A DNA stretch of 64,000 nucleotides from an uncultured Clostridia bacterium (lineage in GTDB: Bacteria; Bacillota_A; Clostridia; TANB77; CAG-508), in NCBI GenBank assembly GCA_947624715.1, contig CANQLO010000002.1, forward strand, positions 31,899 through 95,898. The letters run 5' to 3'. Below are positions 4,962 to 57,339 of the stretch, piece after piece. Position numbers and translations under genes: made by a program. Position 1 is the first letter of the stretch, and each line of letters starts with the position of its first letter. The notes beneath the pieces were generated by a model. The model ran no database searches, was not told the DNA's origin, and was given only the letters and a program-made list of their open reading frames with translations.

Positions 4962-6701
4962 TTAAATAAATATTTTAAAATCAATCCTTCTAGTATCTTT
5001 ATCCGCTGATAAAACTTCTATTTTTACCTTATCTCCTAGCTTATATACTTTTCCTGTATACTCTCCAATTAAAGATTTATTGGAATCATTATATATATAA
5101 TAATCTTCATCTATGTTGTCAAATCTTATCAGTCCTTCTACTGTGTTTTCAAGTTCTACAAACATTCCAAAATTAGTTACACTTGATATAATACCTTCAT
5201 ATACTTCCCCAACTTTTGATTCCATATATTCTGCTTTTTTCATATCTTCACTTTCTCTCTCTGCTTTAGTTGCTACTTGTTCACATTCTGAAGAAGTTTC
5301 TGCATATTTAATAGATTGCTTTGAATATTTACTTTTTAGTTTTTCATCTAAATTATAATCACATTCTAAATATTTGCTAATAATTCTATGAATAAATAAA
5401 TCTGGATATCTTCTAATTGGTGATGTAAAATGGCAATAATACTTACTTGCTATTCCAAAGTGTCCCTTATTTTCTGCTTCATATCTTGCAACTTTTAAAG
5501 TTCTAAGAATTAAATTGCTAACAACTCTTTCTTCATCCTTTCCTTTTACTGCATCTAATACTTGTTGAAAAGCTTTTGGCTTTACATCATCTTTTTTTCC
5601 TTTTATTCTATAACCAAAGTTATATAGATATTTATTAAGTTCAGATACCTTATCCTCATCTGGCTTTTCATGTACTCTGTATATAAATGGGCTTCCTAGC
5701 CAGTAAAATCTTTCTGCAACTGTTTCATTTGCTGTTAGCATAAACTGTTCTATTATTTCATTCGCAAAATTGGTATCATAGGCACAAATGGTAATTGGAT
5801 AACCATATTTATCTAATGTAATTTTGCTTTCTGGAATGTCTAAGGATAAATAACCATCCTTATTTCTTCTCTCTTTTAAAATTAAAGCTAATTCTTTCAT
5901 TGTATCAAAATGACTAATATATTTTTCATATTTCTTTAATACTTTCGGATTACTTCTTTGTATTATATCATATACATCATGATAGTTCATTCTTTCAGTT
6001 ACATTTATTATGCTTTTTCTTATATCAGAATCAATAACTTTTCCATTTTGATCTATTGTCATTATACAAGAAATTGCATACCTATCTTCACCATGATTTA
6101 AACTACATATTCCATTAGAAAGTTCTTTTGGAAGCATTGGAATAACTCTATCTAACATATAGACACTTGTGCCTCTTAAAATTGCTTCTTTGTCTAAACT
6201 ACTTTTCTCTTTAACATAGTGACTTACATCTGCAATATGAACTCCTAATGTATATGTTTCATCTTCATTCTTATAAACACAAACAGCATCATCTAGATCT
6301 TTTGCATCCTCTCCATCTATTGTAAACATTTCCTGTTTTCTTAAATCAAGTCTATCCTTTGGTACAATTTTTTCTTGTGATACTTTTTTAGCTTCATCTA
6401 ATACTTCTTGTGGAAATTCATTAGGAAGTCTAAATCTCTTTATTATAGAAAGCATGTCCACTCCAGTTTCATCTTTAAATCCAAGTATCTCCTTTATCTT
6501 TCCTTCTGCTTTTCTTCCTCTTTCAGGATACTTAGTTATCTCTACAACAACTTTTTGATTTGTTTTAGCTTTTCCCCAGCTTGATTTAGATATAAATATA
6601 TCTCCATTTATTTTTTTATCATCTGGAATAACAAAACCAAAATTTCTACTTTTCTTAAATAATCCTACAACTGATGTAACTTTTTCCTGTAAAATATCCA
6701 T
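4962..6701 (-). CDS. rnr: Ribonuclease R, short form
   Basis: This 3'-5' exoribonuclease degrades structured RNA and takes part in RNA quality control. Domains in order: a cold-shock/OB domain (about residues 10-75, with KSRNFGFVIPD), the RNB catalytic domain with DGEDAKDLDDAV (residues 129-140, the metal-binding aspartates), and a C-terminal S1 domain beginning near GEVYEGIISSVTNFGMFVEL. At 579 residues it is shorter than typical RNase R (over 700): the N-terminal helix-turn-helix region and first OB domain, and the basic tail, are missing. The ATG follows a strong GGAGG box, so truncation by start choice is unlikely. secG lies upstream, as in many Firmicutes; smpB is not next to it. Confidence 0.93.
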   Translation of the reverse strand: MDILQEKVTSVVGLFKKSRNFGFVIPDDKKINGDIFISKSSWGKAKTNQKVVVEITKYPERGRKAEGKIKEILGFKDETGVDMLSIIKRFRLPNEFPQEVLDEAKKVSQEKIVPKDRLDLRKQEMFTIDGEDAKDLDDAVCVYKNEDETYTLGVHIADVSHYVKEKSSLDKEAILRGTSVYMLDRVIPMLPKELSNGICSLNHGEDRYAISCIMTIDQNGKVIDSDIRKSIINVTERMNYHDVYDIIQRSNPKVLKKYEKYISHFDTMKELALILKERRNKDGYLSLDIPESKITLDKYGYPITICAYDTNFANEIIEQFMLTANETVAERFYWLGSPFIYRVHEKPDEDKVSELNKYLYNFGYRIKGKKDDVKPKAFQQVLDAVKGKDEERVVSNLILRTLKVARYEAENKGHFGIASKYYCHFTSPIRRYPDLFIHRIISKYLECDYNLDEKLKSKYSKQSIKYAETSSECEQVATKAERESEDMKKAEYMESKVGEVYEGIISSVTNFGMFVELENTVEGLIRFDNIDEDYYIYNDSNKSLIGEYTGKVYKLGDKVKIEVLSADKDTRRIDFKIFI

Positions 6702-6801
6702 GTTTTACCTCCTTTCCTTAAATGCAAAACAATCCACATTAAAAAATCGTGGATTATCTTGTTACTTATAAATCCTTAATTTATTATAAAAATCTTAGAA
6801 A

Positions 6802-6827
6802 AAGTGCATATAAAACTATATGCACTT
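6802..6827 (-). terminator. Terminator downstream of secG
   Basis: A perfect 11-bp stem (AAGTGCATATA with its complement) and a 4-base loop are followed on the minus strand by TTTCT. It separates secG from rnr. A second, weaker hairpin (AATCCAC/GTGGATT, 6730-6756) lies between it and the rnr start. Confidence 0.8.
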
Positions 6828-6831
6828 CCTT

Positions 6832-7083
6832 CTATATTACAAATACAATTACAGTAACAATACTTAATATTGCAAAAGTTACTCCCAAAATAATAGTATT
6901 TCTTTGAGTCTTTCCTGACTTTGTTCTTCCTTTATTTTTTTGATAATACTTATTTGTTCTTGGATTCTCATAAGTATCTTCTGCTGAATTACTATTGTCC
7001 TTTGATTGAAATGTTGTAATTAAAATTAACGCTATGCATACTACTATGTATATTCCTAATAATATATATTTTACTACATTCAT
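6832..7083 (-). CDS. secG: Protein translocase subunit SecG
   Basis: The 83-residue protein has two hydrophobic segments (about residues 5-25 and 64-82) joined by a polar loop. This is the SecG layout, a small accessory subunit of the SecYEG channel. The first helix ends in TTFQSKD, matching the conserved helix-QS/N junction of the family, and the second contains the usual TxxxxILGxxFAxLS-like pattern. The gene order secG-rnr, common in Firmicutes, supports the call. The loop is longer and more charged than usual. A promoter-like sequence is seen at 7211-7239, within one copy of a 26-bp repeat. Confidence 0.85.
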   Translation of the reverse strand: MNVVKYILLGIYIVVCIALILITTFQSKDNSNSAEDTYENPRTNKYYQKNKGRTKSGKTQRNTIILGVTFAILSIVTVIVFVI

Positions 7084-7210
7084 TTTACTGCTTTTCCTTT
7101 CTTTTAATTTTCTATTAACTTTTTATTTCAAGTGTTTTAAGATGCTTAATTTAATTTTTGTTTGCATCTTCAATTTTTGTTTTTTCTCTACTTACTTAGT
7201 AACATTATTT

Positions 7211-7239
7211 AGTTTAGCATATTTTTAAGAAAAAATCAA
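7211..7239 (-). promoter_or_regulatory. Putative sigma-A promoter of secG
   Basis: On the minus strand TTGATT (7234-7239) and TAAACT (7211-7216) are 17 bases apart. The -35 and spacer lie in a 26-bp sequence repeated exactly at 8118-8143. Confidence 0.5.
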
Positions 7240-7240
7240 G
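7215..7240. repeat. 26-bp direct repeat, copy 1
   Basis: Identical over 26 bp to 8118-8143 and in the same orientation. The two copies bracket toxN and its antitoxin repeats. Each also supplies the -35 box and spacer of a plausible minus-strand promoter, so this could be a copied promoter or an insertion footprint. Confidence 0.8.
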
Positions 7241-7307
7241 TAGTTAAAGGTTGAATTATTATTTACTTTTTAAACTTGTTTATTTTACTTTTATGCCAAT
7301 TTATTAA

Positions 7308-7814
7308 TTATTTTAAAGCATATTCTTTACATTTATGTTCTAGTAATTTAAAATTACAGCATCTCTTCCTTATATTATCTGGAAGTTTATTATCATTATA
7401 TAATTTATACAACTTAGCAGAATTATTTTTTACTTGATAATAGTTTTCATTTAACCAACTTAATTGTTCCTTTAATAAATTTTGATATTTTAGTTCAAAA
7501 ATACTTGTTACTTTCTTATTTAAATCTACTAGTTCATAACTTTCTTCTTTTACAGGTATCATATTATTAAAATTAACCGCTCCTAATTCTCCATTTTTTA
7601 TTTTATAGAAGTCTATAGTATTTTTCATTTTTTTATGCTTCGGCTTTGGGCTCGATAGTGGAGCAAAATATTCACAAGAATCTATTTTAAATAATATACC
7701 AATAAAAGGTCTTAATTCTTTTTCATTTTTATTGTAAGCGACTTTATTATCAAATTGCCTTAAATAGTCACAATAATCCGAATTTACTCTTACGATTCTT
7801 AAATTTAAAATCAT
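7308..7814 (-). CDS. toxN: Type III toxin-antitoxin endoribonuclease, ToxN/AbiQ family
   Basis: The 168-residue protein matches the ToxN/AbiQ family, RNases held inactive by a repeated antitoxin RNA and known for phage abortive infection. The family core is visible: PFIGILFKIDSCEYFAPLSSPK (split here as PFIGILFKI and EYFAPLSSPK) followed by FYKIKNGELGAVNFNNMIPV and the C-terminal CNFKLLEHKCKEY. APLSSPK (residues 51-57) aligns with the catalytic serine/threonine-lysine region of known ToxN. Length is in the family range (about 165-180). Upstream on the same strand are a hairpin terminator and three tandem 35-nt repeats, the defining architecture of a type III system. The gene has its own small upstream gap, and reads through the terminator probably set the toxin level. 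Confidence 0.92.
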   Translation of the reverse strand: MILNLRIVRVNSDYCDYLRQFDNKVAYNKNEKELRPFIGILFKIDSCEYFAPLSSPKPKHKKMKNTIDFYKIKNGELGAVNFNNMIPVKEESYELVDLNKKVTSIFELKYQNLLKEQLSWLNENYYQVKNNSAKLYKLYNDNKLPDNIRKRCCNFKLLEHKCKEYALK

Positions 7815-7908
7815 TTAAATCCTCCCATAATGTGTATTATATAATATTTACATATAAAAAATCAATAAAAATATAAAAAAATACATAATTTGGTAATATT
7901 TTGTTTTA

Positions 7909-7938
7909 AAAAAAGATTAGAGTTTAGTCTCTAATCTT
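7909..7938 (-). terminator. Attenuating terminator between antitoxin repeats and toxN
   Basis: On the minus strand AGATTAGAGAC pairs with its complement across a short loop and is followed by seven T. In type III systems a terminator in this place makes most transcripts antitoxin-only and lets a minority read into the toxin gene. A near-identical hairpin occurs at 8251-8284. Confidence 0.85.
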
Positions 7939-7939
7939 A

Positions 7940-8045
7940 CTTTTTTAAGTTCCAATTTATGGCTGGATTCACCGCTTTTTTAAGTTCCAATTTATGGCTG
8001 GATTCACCGCTTTTTTAAGTTCCAATTTATGGCTGGATTCACCAC
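7940..8045 (-). ncRNA. toxI: ToxI-like antitoxin RNA, three 35-nt tandem repeats
   Basis: Three head-to-tail units of exactly 35 nt lie at 7941-7975, 7976-8010 and 8011-8045. The first two are identical; the third differs at one base (ACCAC for ACCGC on the plus strand). On the minus strand each unit starts GCGGTGAATCCAGCC and ends in a run of six A. Repeat length and number match known ToxI/AntiQ RNAs (about 35-36 nt), and the A-run fits the A-rich cleavage sites of this enzyme family. The RNA is probably cut by ToxN into single units that fold as pseudoknots and inhibit it. There are no spacers, so this is not a CRISPR array. Confidence 0.88.
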
Positions 8046-8113
8046 TTTTTTTGTGCTATATAATAGCAATATTATTATATGCATTTTTTATTAAAATATT
8101 GCCTTACATTATA

Positions 8114-8142
8114 AATATAGCATATTTTTAAGAAAAAATCAA
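8114..8142 (-). promoter_or_regulatory. Putative promoter of the toxI-toxN transcript
   Basis: On the minus strand TTGATT (8137-8142) and TATATT (8114-8119) are 17 bases apart, with TG near the -10. It lies about 70 bases upstream of the first antitoxin repeat. Confidence 0.5.
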
Positions 8143-8143
8143 G
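8118..8143. repeat. 26-bp direct repeat, copy 2
   Basis: Exact copy of 7215-7240, bracketing the ToxIN locus on its upstream side. Confidence 0.8.
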
Positions 8144-8250
8144 ACATTTTCACTTATCAGTCACAGTAGTTATTTCTTTAAATACACTTTCATCCGTAAT
8201 TTTTTTACGGATTATTATAATATTATGTATAAAACATATGATTTTATTCA

Positions 8251-8330
8251 AAAAAAGATTAGAGTTTAGTCTCTAATCTTTTTTTTTAATTTCAATTTAT
8301 TGCTGGATTCATCACTTTTTTATGCTATAT
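8251..8330 (-). repeat. Decayed single copy of the antitoxin module
   Basis: The hairpin of the toxI terminator recurs here (8251-8284). It is followed by one degenerate antitoxin unit (about 8284-8317) with several substitutions and a one-base deletion, then by GCTATATAATA, which also flanks the intact repeats. No toxN is next to it. It sits directly 3' of the rubredoxin gene, whose terminator it may now be. Confidence 0.75.
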
Positions 8331-8338
8331 AATAATAT

Positions 8339-8476
8339 TTATTCTTCTACTTTTTCAAACATATCTTTTCCAACACCACATACTGGGCATACCCAAGTAT
8401 CTGGTAAATCTTCAAATTTAACACCTTCTACACTTTCATCATAAATATGTCCACAAATTGTACATTTATATTTCAT
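8339..8476 (-). CDS. Rubredoxin, short (45-residue) form
   Basis: This small electron carrier binds one iron through four cysteines. Both knuckles are present: CTIC at residues 5-8 and CPVC near residue 30, the latter in the typical context [22 protein letters not shown] (read as [13 protein letters not shown] then KDMFEKVEE). It lacks about seven residues in the loop after the first knuckle compared with the usual 52-54-residue proteins. The same shortening is known for the 45-residue Desulfovibrio desulfuricans rubredoxin. A GGAGGA box precedes the ATG. It is a single gene; the partner is not evident, but such proteins often serve oxygen or peroxide defence in anaerobes. Confidence 0.9.
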
Positions 8477-8563
8477 AACATTATCCTCCATCCTAAAAAA
8501 AATTTTTTATTTTAAATTATTTTATATTTACAAATTTATTGTATTTTATTGATTATTTTACTT

Positions 8564-9859
8564 TTAATATCCTGGTTTCTTTAGTAATTTAAACATATTT
8601 GTTTTGTATTTTTCAACTCCCGGTTGATTAAACGGATTAACTTCTAGTAACTCTGCTGACATTGCTACTGCTTTTTCAAAGAAATAAACAAGTTCTCCAA
8701 CAGATTCCTCATCTAATTTTTTTAGATTTATAATTATATTAGGAACACCACCTTCTGTATGAGCTGCAATAGTTCCTTCCATTGCTTTTTTATTTACATA
8801 CGACAATGTTTTTCCTTGTAAATAATTCAAATTATCTAGATCATCTTCATCTAAGTTTATAACAATATCTGATTTATTTTCTACTATGTTAATAATTGTT
8901 TCAAACATTATTCTTCTGCCTTCTTGAATATATTGTCCTAATGAATGTAAATCAGTTGTAAACTCTGCTCCTACTGGAAATAATCCTTTGCCATCTTTTC
9001 CTTCACTTTCTCCAAATAGTTGCTTCCACCATTCAATAAAGTAATGCATTTTAGGTTCATAAGCTACCAGCATCTCTAAAGATTTATCTGATTCATATAA
9101 CATATTTCTTAATACAGCATATTTGTAACATTCATTATATTTTAGTGAACTATCAGAATATTTATCTTCTGCAACTTGGGCACCTTTCATAAGCTTATCA
9201 ATGTCTAGTCCACTTGCAGCTATTGGAAGAAGACCTACTGCAGTTAAAACTGAAAACCTTCCACCAACATCATCTGGAATAACAAAAGTTTCATATCCTT
9301 CTGAATTTGCAAGAGTCTTTAAGGCTCCTTTTTTCTTATCAGTTGTAACATATATTCTATCCTTAGCTTCCTTTAATCCATATTTGTTCTCAAGTATTTC
9401 TCTAAATATTCTAAAAGCAATAGCTGGTTCTGTTGTTGTCCCTGACTTTGATATTACATTTATACTAAAATCTTTTCCTTCTAGTACCTCGATAATATCA
9501 TTTATATAATTTGCACTTAAACTATTCCCTACGTAAATAACTTTTGTTTTACTTTTATCTTCTAAGTATATTGAACTGTGTAATGCTTCTATAATTGCTC
9601 TAGCTCCTAAATAAGAACCTCCTATTCCTATTACAAGTAATATATCGGAATCACTCTTTATTTTATTAGCAGCTTTTTTTATTCTTGCAAATTCTTTTTT
9701 ATCATAATTTGTTGGTAAATGAAGCCAACCTAAAAATTCATTTTTATCTTTGCTTTTTTCTTCTAGTTCATTATTTATTTCTTCTACAACATCACTATGT
9801 TCTAGTATATCTTTATCATTAATGCCTACATATTTAAAATCAACTTTAATATTTGGCAT
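8564..9859 (-). CDS. pgi: Glucose-6-phosphate isomerase
   Basis: The enzyme interconverts glucose 6-phosphate and fructose 6-phosphate in the cytoplasm. At 431 residues it is of the short Firmicute/archaeal-like class (about 450). Visible motifs include the phosphate-binding [11 protein letters not shown] (about residue 80), [16 protein letters not shown], the [16 protein letters not shown] segment, and the C-terminal [14 protein letters not shown]. It lies at the 3' end of the polysaccharide locus on the same strand, 49 bases after cpsB. The position suggests it helps feed sugar phosphates to nucleotide-sugar synthesis, though it also serves glycolysis. A GGAGG box precedes the ATG. Confidence 0.96.
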
Positions 9860-47755: not shown

Positions 47756-49870
47756 ATGGATGAAAATAATTTAAACTCAAATGGAGAAAATAATAACGCT
47801 TTTCAAGGAAATGATCCATATAATATGAACTCTAATCCTTATCCAAATCAAGATCCTTATGCTGGTACGAATCCTGATTTTAATCAAAATCAAAATCCTT
47901 ATGCTAGTATGAATCCTGACTTTAATCAAAATCAAGATCCTTATGCTAGTATGAATCCTGACTTTAATCAAAATCAAGATCCTTATGCTGGCATGAATTC
48001 TGACTTTAATCAAAATCAAGATCCTTATGCTAGTATGAATCCTGACTTTAATCAGAATCAAGATCCTTATGCTGGTATGAATCCTGACTTTAATACTGGA
48101 TTAAATAATTCACAAACTCAAACTACTAGCGACATAAATGATTTCGATAATAATAATCAGGTTTTAAATCCTATTTTAAATCCTGTTTTACCAAATGATA
48201 ATAATAATCAAGTTGAAAATGTGTCAGATACTGCACCAACTTTACCCGGACAAGACTCTGATAATTCTATGACTGATGCCAACATAAATTACCAAGATAA
48301 CAATAATTTTATGGACCCTAACATGAATTATCAAGATAATAATAACTTTACTGATCCTAATATGAATTATCAAGATAATAATAATTTTACTGATTCTAAT
48401 ATGAATTATCAAGATAACAATAACTTTGCAGATCCTAACATGAATTATCAAGATAATAATAACTTTACTGATCCTAATATGAATTATCAAGATAACAATA
48501 ACTTTACTGATCCTAACATGAATTATCAAGATAATAATAATTTTACTGATCCTAACATGAATTATCAAGATAATAATAATTTTACTGATCCTAACATGAA
48601 TAATAATCAGAATTTCAATCAAAACTTCGGAAATAGTAATGCTTCTGGTGATTATAACATGGATTTTGTAAAAGCTTGGATGGGAACCTTATATGACAAA
48701 GCACACTCAAAAAAATTCAATTGGTGTGCAGCTATTTTTGGAGAAATATATTTGTTATATAGAAAAATGTATTTAACTGGTTGTTTATTTGCAGTATTAA
48801 GACTTTTACTTGCTTTCTTAACAATATTCTTATTTACTAAAATTGGAGTTAGTGCATTTGCATTATTGGCTGTTGTGTTTGTAGCATTTTTACTTGTATA
48901 TGGACTAGGATTTTATCCATTATATAGAAACTTTGTAAAGAATAAATTAAATAAGCTAAAACAAACTACCCCTGATAATTCTCAATTAATTAACCTAGCT
49001 TCACAAAAAGGAAATACTTCTGTTATTGCAGTTATCTTATATTGTGTCATTGTACCAATTATAACATGGGCACTATCTGCTTTACTAATAGCTGCAAACA
49101 TATTAAATTTTGCTTCTGGATTTATTAATCCTGGAAGTGATATCGAGAATGAAATAAATAATGAAATTGTTGAAGAATTTGATTATCAAGATTTAGAATT
49201 TACAGAAGGATATAGCATTGAATATGATGCTCTTACATGGTTCTATGATGATACAGATAATACATTAACTAAAGGTGATTATGTATTAGCATATTCTGGA
49301 CAATCTGTTACAGATATTAAATCAGTATATAACCTTGATGTTACAAATGCTAATGATAGATCTTCACTATTGAATTCATTAGTTTCAAATTTCCAATCAC
49401 AAGCATCATCACTTAATTTATCTGTTCAATCAGGAACAAGTAATTTTGTTACTGGAACTTCAATTCCTAATGTATATTACTCATATATTGATGTAGAATC
49501 AGCAGATGCTATCTCTAGATACTATCTAATTCTACTTCCAGAAGATGATACATTATTCCAATTTACTCTTAATGTAAATGATACTACTGTAGATAATATG
49601 ACACATACTGAAGTTATTTCAATCTTAACAAGTGCATCTAAAGTAGACAATTTAGATGAAGATCAAGATTCTTCTGATAATGGTAATACTTTAAATGATG
49701 ATGAAACAGTTGGAAATACAGTAGTTAATGAAGTTGATTTAAATGATACGAATGTTGTATCTGTTAATGCTACTGTTGATAATGAAGTTGCTACAAATGA
49801 AACTGTATCAAATGTTGTTAGTGATAATACCACATCTGGAAATACAAATTTAGGAGATTTTTTAAGATAA
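47756..49870 (+). CDS. Repeat-rich membrane protein with DUF2628-like domain
   Basis: The 704-residue protein starts with an Asn/Asp/Gln/Tyr-rich region made of two tandem repeat families. One has about five 14-residue units (QNQDPYASMNPDFN; 42 nt), the other about nine 13-residue units (NYQDNNNFTDPNM; 39 nt). A DUF2628-like membrane domain follows (about 305-400: KFNWCAAIFGEIYLLYRKMY, two membrane helices), another membrane segment near 430-455, and an extracellular C-terminal domain ending in a Thr/Asn/Val-rich tail. The role is unknown. The repeats are nearly identical at DNA level, so copy number may vary between strains. AAGGAG precedes the ATG. Confidence 0.8.
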   Translation: MDENNLNSNGENNNAFQGNDPYNMNSNPYPNQDPYAGTNPDFNQNQNPYASMNPDFNQNQDPYASMNPDFNQNQDPYAGMNSDFNQNQDPYASMNPDFNQNQDPYAGMNPDFNTGLNNSQTQTTSDINDFDNNNQVLNPILNPVLPNDNNNQVENVSDTAPTLPGQDSDNSMTDANINYQDNNNFMDPNMNYQDNNNFTDPNMNYQDNNNFTDSNMNYQDNNNFADPNMNYQDNNNFTDPNMNYQDNNNFTDPNMNYQDNNNFTDPNMNYQDNNNFTDPNMNNNQNFNQNFGNSNASGDYNMDFVKAWMGTLYDKAHSKKFNWCAAIFGEIYLLYRKMYLTGCLFAVLRLLLAFLTIFLFTKIGVSAFALLAVVFVAFLLVYGLGFYPLYRNFVKNKLNKLKQTTPDNSQLINLASQKGNTSVIAVILYCVIVPIITWALSALLIAANILNFASGFINPGSDIENEINNEIVEEFDYQDLEFTEGYSIEYDALTWFYDDTDNTLTKGDYVLAYSGQSVTDIKSVYNLDVTNANDRSSLLNSLVSNFQSQASSLNLSVQSGTSNFVTGTSIPNVYYSYIDVESADAISRYYLILLPEDDTLFQFTLNVNDTTVDNMTHTEVISILTSASKVDNLDEDQDSSDNGNTLNDDETVGNTVVNEVDLNDTNVVSVNATVDNEVATNETVSNVVSDNTTSGNTNLGDFLR

Positions 49871-56178: not shown

Positions 56179-57339
56179 ATGGCTCGAAAAACTAAAGAAG
56201 AATTGAATAAATTAAATGGAGAACTTACAGACCCAAAAACAACTAAGACAACTAAATCAATAAAAACAACTAAAACAGCTGTTAAATCAACTTCAGCTGT
56301 TAAAAGTGTTGCTAAAAAAGAGCCTGTAAAAAAGGTTGCTAAAAAGGCTGATGCTAAGAAAATTGTTTCTAAGAAGACTAAGTCTGATAAAACTTCTACT
56401 AAGAAAACTGCAACTAAGAAAGTAGCTCCTAAAGAAACTGTTTCTAAAAAGTCTAAGTCTGATAAAACTTCTACTAGAAAAACTACTACTAAGAAAGTAA
56501 ATCCTAAAGAAACTGTTTCTAAGAAGTCTAAGTCTGATAAAACTTCTACTAGAAAAACTACTACTAAGAAAGTAAATCCTAAAGAAACTGTTTCTAAGAA
56601 GTCTAAGACAGAAAAAACTACTTCTAAAAAAGCACCTACTAAGAAAACTGCTACTAAAAAAGCTACAACCAAAAAAACACCTACTAAGAAAATTACTACA
56701 AAAAAAGCTACTACTACAAAAACACGTACAAAAAAATCTGAGGAAAAATCAAATGTTGTCTCTATCAACCCAATAGAATACTACGATTTACCTTATAGAT
56801 ATAATGAAACTATCGTTAAAGTTTTAGCGCAGAATCCAAATACTCTATTTGCTTACTGGGATATATCTGATAGCGATAGAGAAAATTTAGAAAAACAATA
56901 TGGAAAATTATTTTTCTATAACACAAAACCTGTTTTAGTTGTGCATAATTTAACTGATAATTATACTTTTGAAATAGATATAGATGATTTTGCCAACAAT
57001 TGGTATATTAATGTAAATGATACAAAATGTAAATATTTCGTTGAACTTGGAAGAAGACCAAAATATGAAAATCATAATGAAATTCCTGTAAACTATATAA
57101 ATGTTGCATCTTCTAATACAATAGAAATGCCTAATGATCATATTTTATTTTTCAAAGACAATGATAAGATTTACTTTAAAAATATAAAAACAAACAAAAT
57201 TACTGAGAAAATCTTTAAAAGCAAAACTTATTCAAATAAGCTTAGTAGAATCTACAGTAATTACAACCTTTCAGAAACAGATGATAGATTTGATTTCAAG
57301 AATCCATCTTCTCAAAATCCAACATCAAATGTTTTATAG
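56179..57339 (+). CDS. DUF4912 protein with Lys/Thr-rich repetitive N-terminus
   Basis: The 386-residue protein has two parts. Residues 1-190 are Lys/Thr/Ser-rich with tandem 25-residue repeats (KTSTRKTTTKKVNPKE, TVSKKSKSD) that resemble histone H1-like tails. Residues about 195-320 are a DUF4912 domain: YDLPYRYNETIVKVLAQNPN, LFAYWDISDSDRE, YFVELGRRP. DUF4912 genes often neighbour GH57 and glycosyltransferase genes, as here. The fold resembles carbohydrate-associated Ig-like domains, so a glucan-binding partner of the branching enzyme is plausible. The basic tail could bind nucleic acid or a polyanion. The GH57 gene follows by 17 bases. Confidence 0.8.
   Translation: MARKTKEELNKLNGELTDPKTTKTTKSIKTTKTAVKSTSAVKSVAKKEPVKKVAKKADAKKIVSKKTKSDKTSTKKTATKKVAPKETVSKKSKSDKTSTRKTTTKKVNPKETVSKKSKSDKTSTRKTTTKKVNPKETVSKKSKTEKTTSKKAPTKKTATKKATTKKTPTKKITTKKATTTKTRTKKSEEKSNVVSINPIEYYDLPYRYNETIVKVLAQNPNTLFAYWDISDSDRENLEKQYGKLFFYNTKPVLVVHNLTDNYTFEIDIDDFANNWYINVNDTKCKYFVELGRRPKYENHNEIPVNYINVASSNTIEMPNDHILFFKDNDKIYFKNIKTNKITEKIFKSKTYSNKLSRIYSNYNLSETDDRFDFKNPSSQNPTSNVL

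Follow-up and report, generated by a model that had tools for sequence, protein, structure and literature searches.

Does the segment read on the minus strand from position 8143 to position 7308 form a complete toxin–antitoxin system, how would such a system work, and how did it come to lie between secG and a rubredoxin gene? The segment belongs to a window of 64,000 nucleotides (the whole stretch of DNA that was analysed), and a first-pass annotation had described it as a type III locus of the ToxIN/AbiQ kind, complete and located on the chromosome, with promoter, repeats, terminator and toxin following each other on one strand. The order of the elements is right, and the chromosomal location is borne out by the SecG and rubredoxin genes and by surrounding open reading frames which, judged by eye, we take to encode RNase R and glucose-6-phosphate isomerase. 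We argue that the locus is very probably a complete chromosomal type III toxin–antitoxin locus of the ToxIN (ToxN/AbiQ) family, whose mechanism can be proposed from the family and whose history can be proposed from a comparison with the sister genome G069. It is a new and ordinary-looking member of the family in an interesting neighbourhood, and it joins a large family (3236 ToxN proteins at E ≤ 0.001) as one more complete locus. The features discussed below are collected in Table 1.

Table 1. Features of the ToxIN locus and of its surroundings (window coordinates; strand where assigned).
Feature	Position	Strand	Basis or remark
secG, downstream neighbour	6832..7083	-	ORF list, family scan
26-bp direct repeat, copy upstream of secG	7215..7240		also in sister genome G069
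AGTAGTTA, 8-nt direct repeat, left edge of inserted segment	7239..7246		comparison with G069
toxN, 168-aa ToxN/AbiQ-family endoribonuclease	7308..7814	-	ORF list, Pfam, PADLOC, PDB, predicted fold
Candidate toxN promoter, TTGATT-18-TATAAT	7836..7865	-	21 nt before start codon, downstream of ToxI terminator
Intrinsic terminator between ToxI and toxN	7913..7938	-	10-bp stem and T run; folding, terminator scan
ToxI unit 3, 35 nt	7941..7975	-	TRF, unit profile, pair check
ToxI unit 2, 35 nt	7976..8010	-	TRF, unit profile, pair check
ToxI unit 1, 35 nt	8011..8045	-	no broken pair among the nine tested in S1 and S2
ToxI promoter motif, TTGATT-17-TATATT	8114..8142	-	9/12 match; motif only
26-bp direct repeat, copy in ToxI promoter	8118..8143		perfect match to 7215-7240
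AGTAGTTA, 8-nt direct repeat, right edge of inserted segment	8165..8172		comparison with G069
Scar, 3' end of second AbiL-like (PDC-M12) operon gene	8166..8193	-	27/28 nt versus G069
Upstream flank of G069 AbiL-like operon, 57 bp	8192..8248		54/57 match
Relic ToxI terminator	8255..8280	-	identical over 26 nt to 7913-7938
Relic ToxI unit	8281..8315	-	5 changes in 35 nt versus unit 1, three conserved pairs broken
Rubredoxin gene, upstream neighbour	8345..8476	-	family scan

The toxin gene is an uninterrupted ATG frame of 168 codons preceded by a GGGAGG ribosome site. A search against ToxN/AbiQ profiles had been proposed as a check of the assignment, and the protein indeed matches the Pfam family ToxN_toxin (4.1e-50, 170 bits for a cut-off of 25) and the AbiQ profile of PADLOC (1.9e-38). 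Searching PDB sequences up to an E value of 0.1 returns ToxN/AbiQ chains only (n = 4): 4ato (2.4e-25), which is presumably the ToxN of Bacillus thuringiensis, 2xd0 (1.3e-16), 7d8o (1.9e-15) and AbiQ, 4glk (3.1e-9). The fold predicted by AlphaFold2 from a 12-row alignment (pLDDT 79) has TM-scores of 0.75–0.77, normalised by query length, to these four chains. All 12 aligned rows (the window and 11 homologues, 75–98% identical) share the motif S54-S55-P56-K57, which aligns with T52-S53-P54-K55 of chain 2xd0; passages of PMC5086642 give Thr52, Ser53 and Lys55 as active-site residues of the Pectobacterium atrosepticum ToxN. No clear counterpart of Y29 of the 2xd0 ToxN was found in the alignment, and residues 28–36 of the model are of low confidence.

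Three 35-nt tandem repeats had been announced upstream of the toxin gene, each with an A6 run at its end. They are found by TRF as 3.2 copies with 98% match at 7940–8051, and the A6 runs are present. The 20-nt core of the repeat occurs four times in the window (three exact copies and one with two mismatches) for 0.00 expected. Elsewhere in the window, tandem repeats at 47841–48094, 48272–48601 and 56360–56736 have periods of 42, 39 and 75/45/15 nt; these periods are multiples of three, and the repeats perhaps lie in coding sequence. The hairpin of the predicted terminator has a folding energy of -10.6 kcal/mol (z -4.6) and ends in a run of seven T. A scan of positions 7000–8600 gives three terminator-like sites, versus 0.1 in shuffled sequence, two of them being hairpins read on the plus strand. 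The frame without internal stop, the three units and the terminator are thus intact, as had been stated, and as far as the sequence goes they are compatible with an active locus.

The relatives of the locus were collected by a genome scan with the alignment of 12 homologues, which gave at least 278 confirmed loci among at least 588 matched stretches, the best 80 being kept. ToxI units precede toxN in 78 of these best 80 loci: three units in 65 loci, two in eight, one in four and four in one. As for the other two, one has just 100 nt of contig upstream of toxN and the other begins inside toxN. In related loci, a promoter motif like that of the window occupies the same position upstream of ToxI. 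The ToxI leader (8047–8090 in the window) contains TTGCTATTATATAGCA, a short hairpin-like motif that recurs, by eye, ahead of the first unit in many related loci. The stem of the terminator, GATTAGAG/CTCTAATC, keeps its sequence and not its pairing alone in many loci, and the 26-nt terminator of the window is matched at 20 or more positions in 41 of 78 loci, a count that has no null model. It may be that this conserved stem sequence has a role beyond termination.

Regarding the structure of the antitoxin, two interleaved stems are possible in the ToxI unit, S1 (GGU/GCC) and S2 (UCCA/UGGA). Of 200 units drawn from 69 loci and the window, 196 pair in S1; in units 2 and 3 of the window one outer S1 pair is missing. 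For S2, 104 of 135 distinct units contain the complement of their own 5' strand, versus 54.5 ± 3.7 when the 5' strands are swapped (66 at most in 2000 shuffles), and the complement is exact in 97 of the 135 units, versus 42.3 ± 4.1. Taken by type, it is exact in 66/72 units with UCCA, 14/25 with CCCA, 12/12 with GCCA and 5/5 with ACCA. The exact complement is absent in all 21 units of eight rarer S2 types, in which, judging from these sequences, the S2 stem must lie elsewhere or fail. In the MAFFT alignment of the units, 80.2% of the cells are paired in the named structure, versus 75.5 ± 0.5 in shuffles and 57.7% at most when the structure is slid by one to three columns. Both sides of a pair change in 70 cells (24.1 ± 3.9 in shuffles), and the covariation score is 0.164 (0.095 ± 0.007 in shuffles). 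Further pair types show no excess in this alignment (16, versus 16.2 in shuffles), and 19.8% of its cells are unpaired, in part because MAFFT mis-registers units that have other loop lengths. The folding of one unit, which had been suggested as a check for a pseudoknot, gives no signal above chance. Rfam has no match at E ≤ 1 over 6500–9000. The covariation among relatives supports an H-type pseudoknot as the layout of the ToxI unit, which is the fold published for ToxI according to passages of PMC5086642 and PMC8860590.

The first-pass annotation was silent on four features of the neighbourhood and of the spacer: an AbiL-like scar, the 26-bp repeats, a relic ToxI with its terminator, and a likely toxN promoter. 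The first two bear on the arrival of the cassette. The closest genome that we found is G069, whose RNase R-like and isomerase-like proteins are 96% and 94% identical to those of the window; positions 6781–7246 of the window match it at 89%, and over 7191–7246, upstream of secG, the two agree at 55 of 56 positions. In G069, an AbiL-like/PDC-M12 operon (L194:671-2538), made of an AAA ATPase and a second gene, lies directly upstream of secG. The ATPase matches the PADLOC profiles PDC-M12A (4.6e-129) and AbiLi (3.9e-38), and the second gene matches PDC-M12B (2.6e-64), AbiLii at just 1e-3 and the Pfam family RloB below its cut-off. At this point G069 has the octamer AGTAGTTA once, and the ToxIN segment of the window is flanked by two copies, which is the mark of an insertion. 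Between 8166 and 8195 the window matches the end of the second gene in 27 of 30 nt (23 at most in 200 shuffles). Since this 3' scar and the upstream flank of the operon are kept, the AbiL-like operon probably stood at this site and was deleted in the lineage of the window. The AbiL-like operon may instead be new in G069, having taken up the 28 nt from older sequence; deletion in the window is the simpler reading. Under the deletion reading, the ToxIN cassette seems to have replaced an AbiL-like cassette at the secG site: it would have been inserted beside secG, where the lineage once carried the AbiL-like operon, and an older ToxIN copy would have decayed alongside to one repeat and a terminator, the latter still standing behind the rubredoxin gene. 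The evidence for this history comes from a single sister genome, G069, in which the genes are otherwise arranged differently: its rubredoxin gene is found on another contig, and the operon is followed by transporter-like genes. In G068, rubredoxin comes after the 26-bp region, and neither of the two systems separates them. Together, these surroundings suggest a turnover of defence modules at one place.

Recombination between the two 26-bp repeats would delete 903 bp, and secG would still have its promoter. We considered that these repeats could be transposon ends and rejected this idea: both copies are promoter sequences (of secG and of ToxI), and the sequences past the toxN stop vary by locus group and have, by eye, no common end, near-relative loci sharing a few nucleotides there. 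Other ToxI promoters match the 26-bp repeat at 22 positions at most (74 loci), and our guess is that the identity of the two copies comes from recombination between two similar promoters.

An open reading frame that we take to be a KAP-type ATPase lies directly upstream of secG in seven of the 20 genomes of the genus that were listed (L207:1004-2974, and likewise in G051, G053, G054, G056, G060 and G047), G052 and G055, among the 20, being too short to judge. The one that was tested is the PADLOC candidate PDC-S49. This ATPase stands in a recurrent gene order, and the idea of a general hotspot upstream of secG was therefore discarded.

By analogy with the family, the locus would work as follows. 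ToxI RNA would be made from its own promoter and end at the terminator. ToxN, as an endoribonuclease for A-rich sites, would cut this precursor in the A6 runs into three pseudoknots of about 35 nt, and toxin and units would close into an inactive assembly. If the synthesis of ToxI is stopped or outrun, for example upon phage infection, free ToxN would cut cellular and phage RNA, and growth would stop. The RNase activity, the processing at A6, the assembly and the abortive infection are all carried over from the family; the locus is likely active and protective against phages.

The same biochemistry could also serve a selfish cassette that has no role in phage defence and is kept since the loss of ToxI frees ToxN. 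We regard this as possible and incline against it. The distribution of the gene speaks for it: among the 31 genomes of the genus of G069, 16 have a toxN of any kind and just four of these have one at 70% identity or more, and in none of the 13 toxN-bearing genomes with an RNase R match do the two lie on one contig. The 8-nt repeats at the edges also look like the trace of a recent gain, and, by a section heading of PMC4627078, the CptIN system of E. rectale stabilises plasmids and does not abort phages in E. coli. On the contrary, a site that seems to have been held by another defence-type operon fits a defence cassette, and the family members that have been studied most closely do abort phages, according to passages of PMC5086642. 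As to where the cassette came from, viral contigs searched with a single ToxN protein gave three loci, at 45% identity, and toxN matches occur in two of 50,697 phage records and 168 of 72,556 plasmid records, all below 60% identity; nothing in these viral, phage and plasmid records points to a recent origin from a phage or a plasmid. We retain defence as the likely function.

What is new for the specialist is the promoter that toxN appears to have in this group, together with the likely control by LexA in some relatives. Considered alone, the promoter candidate of the window is weak: 16% of shuffled sequences reach its score, and 3.4% do so at a like position too. It is the recurrence in relatives that makes it likely that toxN has its own promoter. 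The test covered the 57 of 79 spacers (window included) that are at least 70 nt long, the 22 shorter ones being left out. A match of at least 9/12 is found in 42 of the 57 spacers, versus 13.8 ± 3.1 in shuffles, and 36 of these 42 matches end 17–31 nt before the start of toxN; eight spacers have a match of at least 11/12, versus 0.15 in shuffles. When similar spacers are collapsed, a match is found in 10 of 11, versus 4.3 ± 1.4 (nine at most in 200 shuffles), six of the ten lying 17–31 nt from the start and four elsewhere. According to passages of PMC5086642, the published layout of type III systems has one promoter for antitoxin and toxin. A separate toxN promoter, likely in this group, would depart from that layout.

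It may be that the locus is a textbook operon after all: toxN would depend entirely on transcripts that run through the ToxI terminator, and the TATAAT would have arisen by chance in AT-rich DNA. The published layout, the 16% of window shuffles that reach the score, the 22 spacers below 70 nt, the 11 spacers left after collapsing and the four matches out of place all lend this some weight, so that we keep it as a tentative alternative. The excess of well-placed and of near-perfect matches over shuffles, which in the collapsed set still goes beyond the shuffle maximum, argues against it and for a promoter of toxN itself.

Of 120 loci scanned, among them the window (which has no box), 16 carry a LexA-type operator in the spacer that separates the ToxI terminator from toxN. 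The eight strongest toxN promoters, those with at least 11/12, all carry a GAACATATGT-like palindrome between -35 and -10. The boxes were scored with a matrix of 35 boxes, hand-picked from lexA and recA promoters; 14 host genomes were used as a source (11 of boxed loci and three of loci without box), and 12 of them gave boxes. In G074, a lexA match is absent and recA is a fragment only; in G084, lexA is not over the cut-off and recA has no box. With this matrix, 11 of the 79 spacers of the first set score at least 12.6 and the next best scores 3.6, shuffles giving 0.03 at 11. These 11 spacers form six groups at 70% spacer identity; the box is inside the toxN promoter in eight (L034, L040, L046, L047, L050, L071, L073, L078) and outside a recognised promoter in three (L054, L057, L083). 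Boxes scoring at least 10 are found in none of 74 regions upstream of ToxI and within none of 78 toxN genes of this set. The box had first been sighted by eye on the first set, and a second set of 41 loci, from another search and with the first-set loci removed, served as a check: five loci score at least 12 (L271, L274, L278, L303, L304), versus 0.09 in shuffles. L303 closely resembles L304, L271 is a second toxN of a first-set genome, and in the genome of L274 lexA was not found over the cut-off. Among nine loci with unrecognised ToxI, L308 and L318 score 16.2 and L264 scores 11.1, with the box shortly upstream of toxN; weaker boxes occur in L258, L264 and L310. The matrix also recovers lexA-promoter boxes of at least 14 in six of six further lexA-bearing genomes of that order, outside the training set. 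A count of LexA half-sites is without significance (16/79, versus 12.4 ± 2.9 in shuffles), and the boxed spacers stand apart only with the matrix built on lexA and recA promoters of the genomes themselves. In the window, a LexA box of at least 11 is absent on both strands over the 64 kb; the lexA boxes of six genomes of the genus of G069 score 7.8–14.7 with this matrix, so a weaker box could be missed.

On balance, we lean towards the view that, in this branch of ToxIN, toxN is transcribed independently from a conserved promoter downstream of the ToxI terminator, and that in a subset of Bacilli a LexA operator covers this promoter. This view is weakened because three of the 11 boxes are outside recognised promoters and two boxed genomes have no lexA over the cut-off. 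It suggests that the boxed type III toxins may be SOS-inducible. In what our literature searches returned, which is part of the literature, there is no report of LexA or SOS control of a type III system or of ToxN; in the passages of PMC5377504 and PMC4147584, LexA comes up in connection with TisB, which is a type I toxin. A search for orphan or solitary ToxN found no papers. The standard account has one promoter and a release of the toxin from the RNA–protein complex. The LexA boxes would couple this release to SOS: under DNA damage or phage attack, the toxin would increase and the antitoxin would not, a second, transcriptional way of arming a type III system.

The relic lies about 240 bp from the intact locus. 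Its changes break the S1 pairs 4-17 and 5-16 and the S2 pair 11-32; among the 135 distinct sequences, the relic is the only one that leaves either of the first two unpaired. It scores 12.7 bits, versus 38–40 for units 1–3, with a unit profile built without it. A piece of the ToxI leader is kept at 8316–8334 (18/19 nt alike), relic and leader piece beginning about 10 nt after the rubredoxin stop, and the ToxI promoter is absent. We read positions 8255–8315 as the remains of an older ToxIN, decayed to one repeat and a terminator; the latter has perhaps been kept as the terminator of rubredoxin. The relic should not be called promoterless: a promoter-like match (10/12) is found at 8358–8329, across the end of rubredoxin, so it may still be transcribed. 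A recent duplication was also considered as its origin and set aside; the identical terminators are no proof of it, because the terminator sequence recurs in many loci. Other remains exist among the relatives: L012:2591-2840 is a fossil toxIN with two ToxI units, a terminator and codons 107–134 of toxN only, about 2.2 kb before an intact toxN, and L065 and L070 carry extra ToxI units.

The intact locus could itself be decaying and no longer work, as happened next to it. The nearby relic, the fossil of L012 and the toxN frames of L021, L044, L061 and L067, which stop at 105–139 codons versus about 168 and are broken or cut copies, show how such loci can end. In the window, on the contrary, frame, ribosome site, promoter motif, three near-identical units and terminator are intact, the active-site motif is kept, and another public contig encodes a 98% identical protein; we find decay very unlikely.

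Last, the locus can be compared with known systems. A toxin homologous to ToxN/AbiQ, tandem repeats in the range of 34–36 nt upstream of it, a terminator in between, a -35/-10 motif upstream of the repeats and a pseudoknot supported by covariation place it in the ToxIN family. The related CptIN family is known from related gut bacteria, Coprococcus and Eubacterium (passages of PMC5086642 and PMC4627078), and an assignment to it is nonetheless hardly conceivable, since its pseudoknot is of 45 nt (a passage of PMC4627078) versus units of 35 nt here, the predicted fold has a TM-score of 0.34 to CptN (4rmo) versus 0.75–0.77 to ToxN/AbiQ, and the sequence search finds ToxN/AbiQ chains alone.

AbiL, or PDC-M12, is unrelated to ToxIN and is likely the former occupant of the site only; its AAA ATPase and RloB-like gene are in G069, and the window keeps the 3' scar and the upstream flank. 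The AbiQ/antiQ system of Lactococcus lactis resembles the locus in its fold, its 35-nt repeats, its roughly three units (2.8 in a passage of PMC5086642), its terminator and its A-rich unit ends. It differs by a low protein identity (Lactococcus plasmid matches are at 39.8%), and the window locus, unlike it, is chromosomal and has a likely separate toxN promoter. The ToxIN of B. thuringiensis provides the best PDB sequence match to the window; its repeat sequence and toxin have diverged, and its host and location are others. It has 2.9 repeats of 34 nt according to a passage of PMC5086642. The ToxIN systems of P. atrosepticum and E. coli share with the window the order promoter, repeats, terminator and toxin, the two-stem H-type pseudoknot and the fold of the toxin; they have 5.5 repeats in P. 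atrosepticum (a passage of PMC5086642) and 4.6 in cluster 1 of E. coli (a passage of PMC8860590), versus three in the window.
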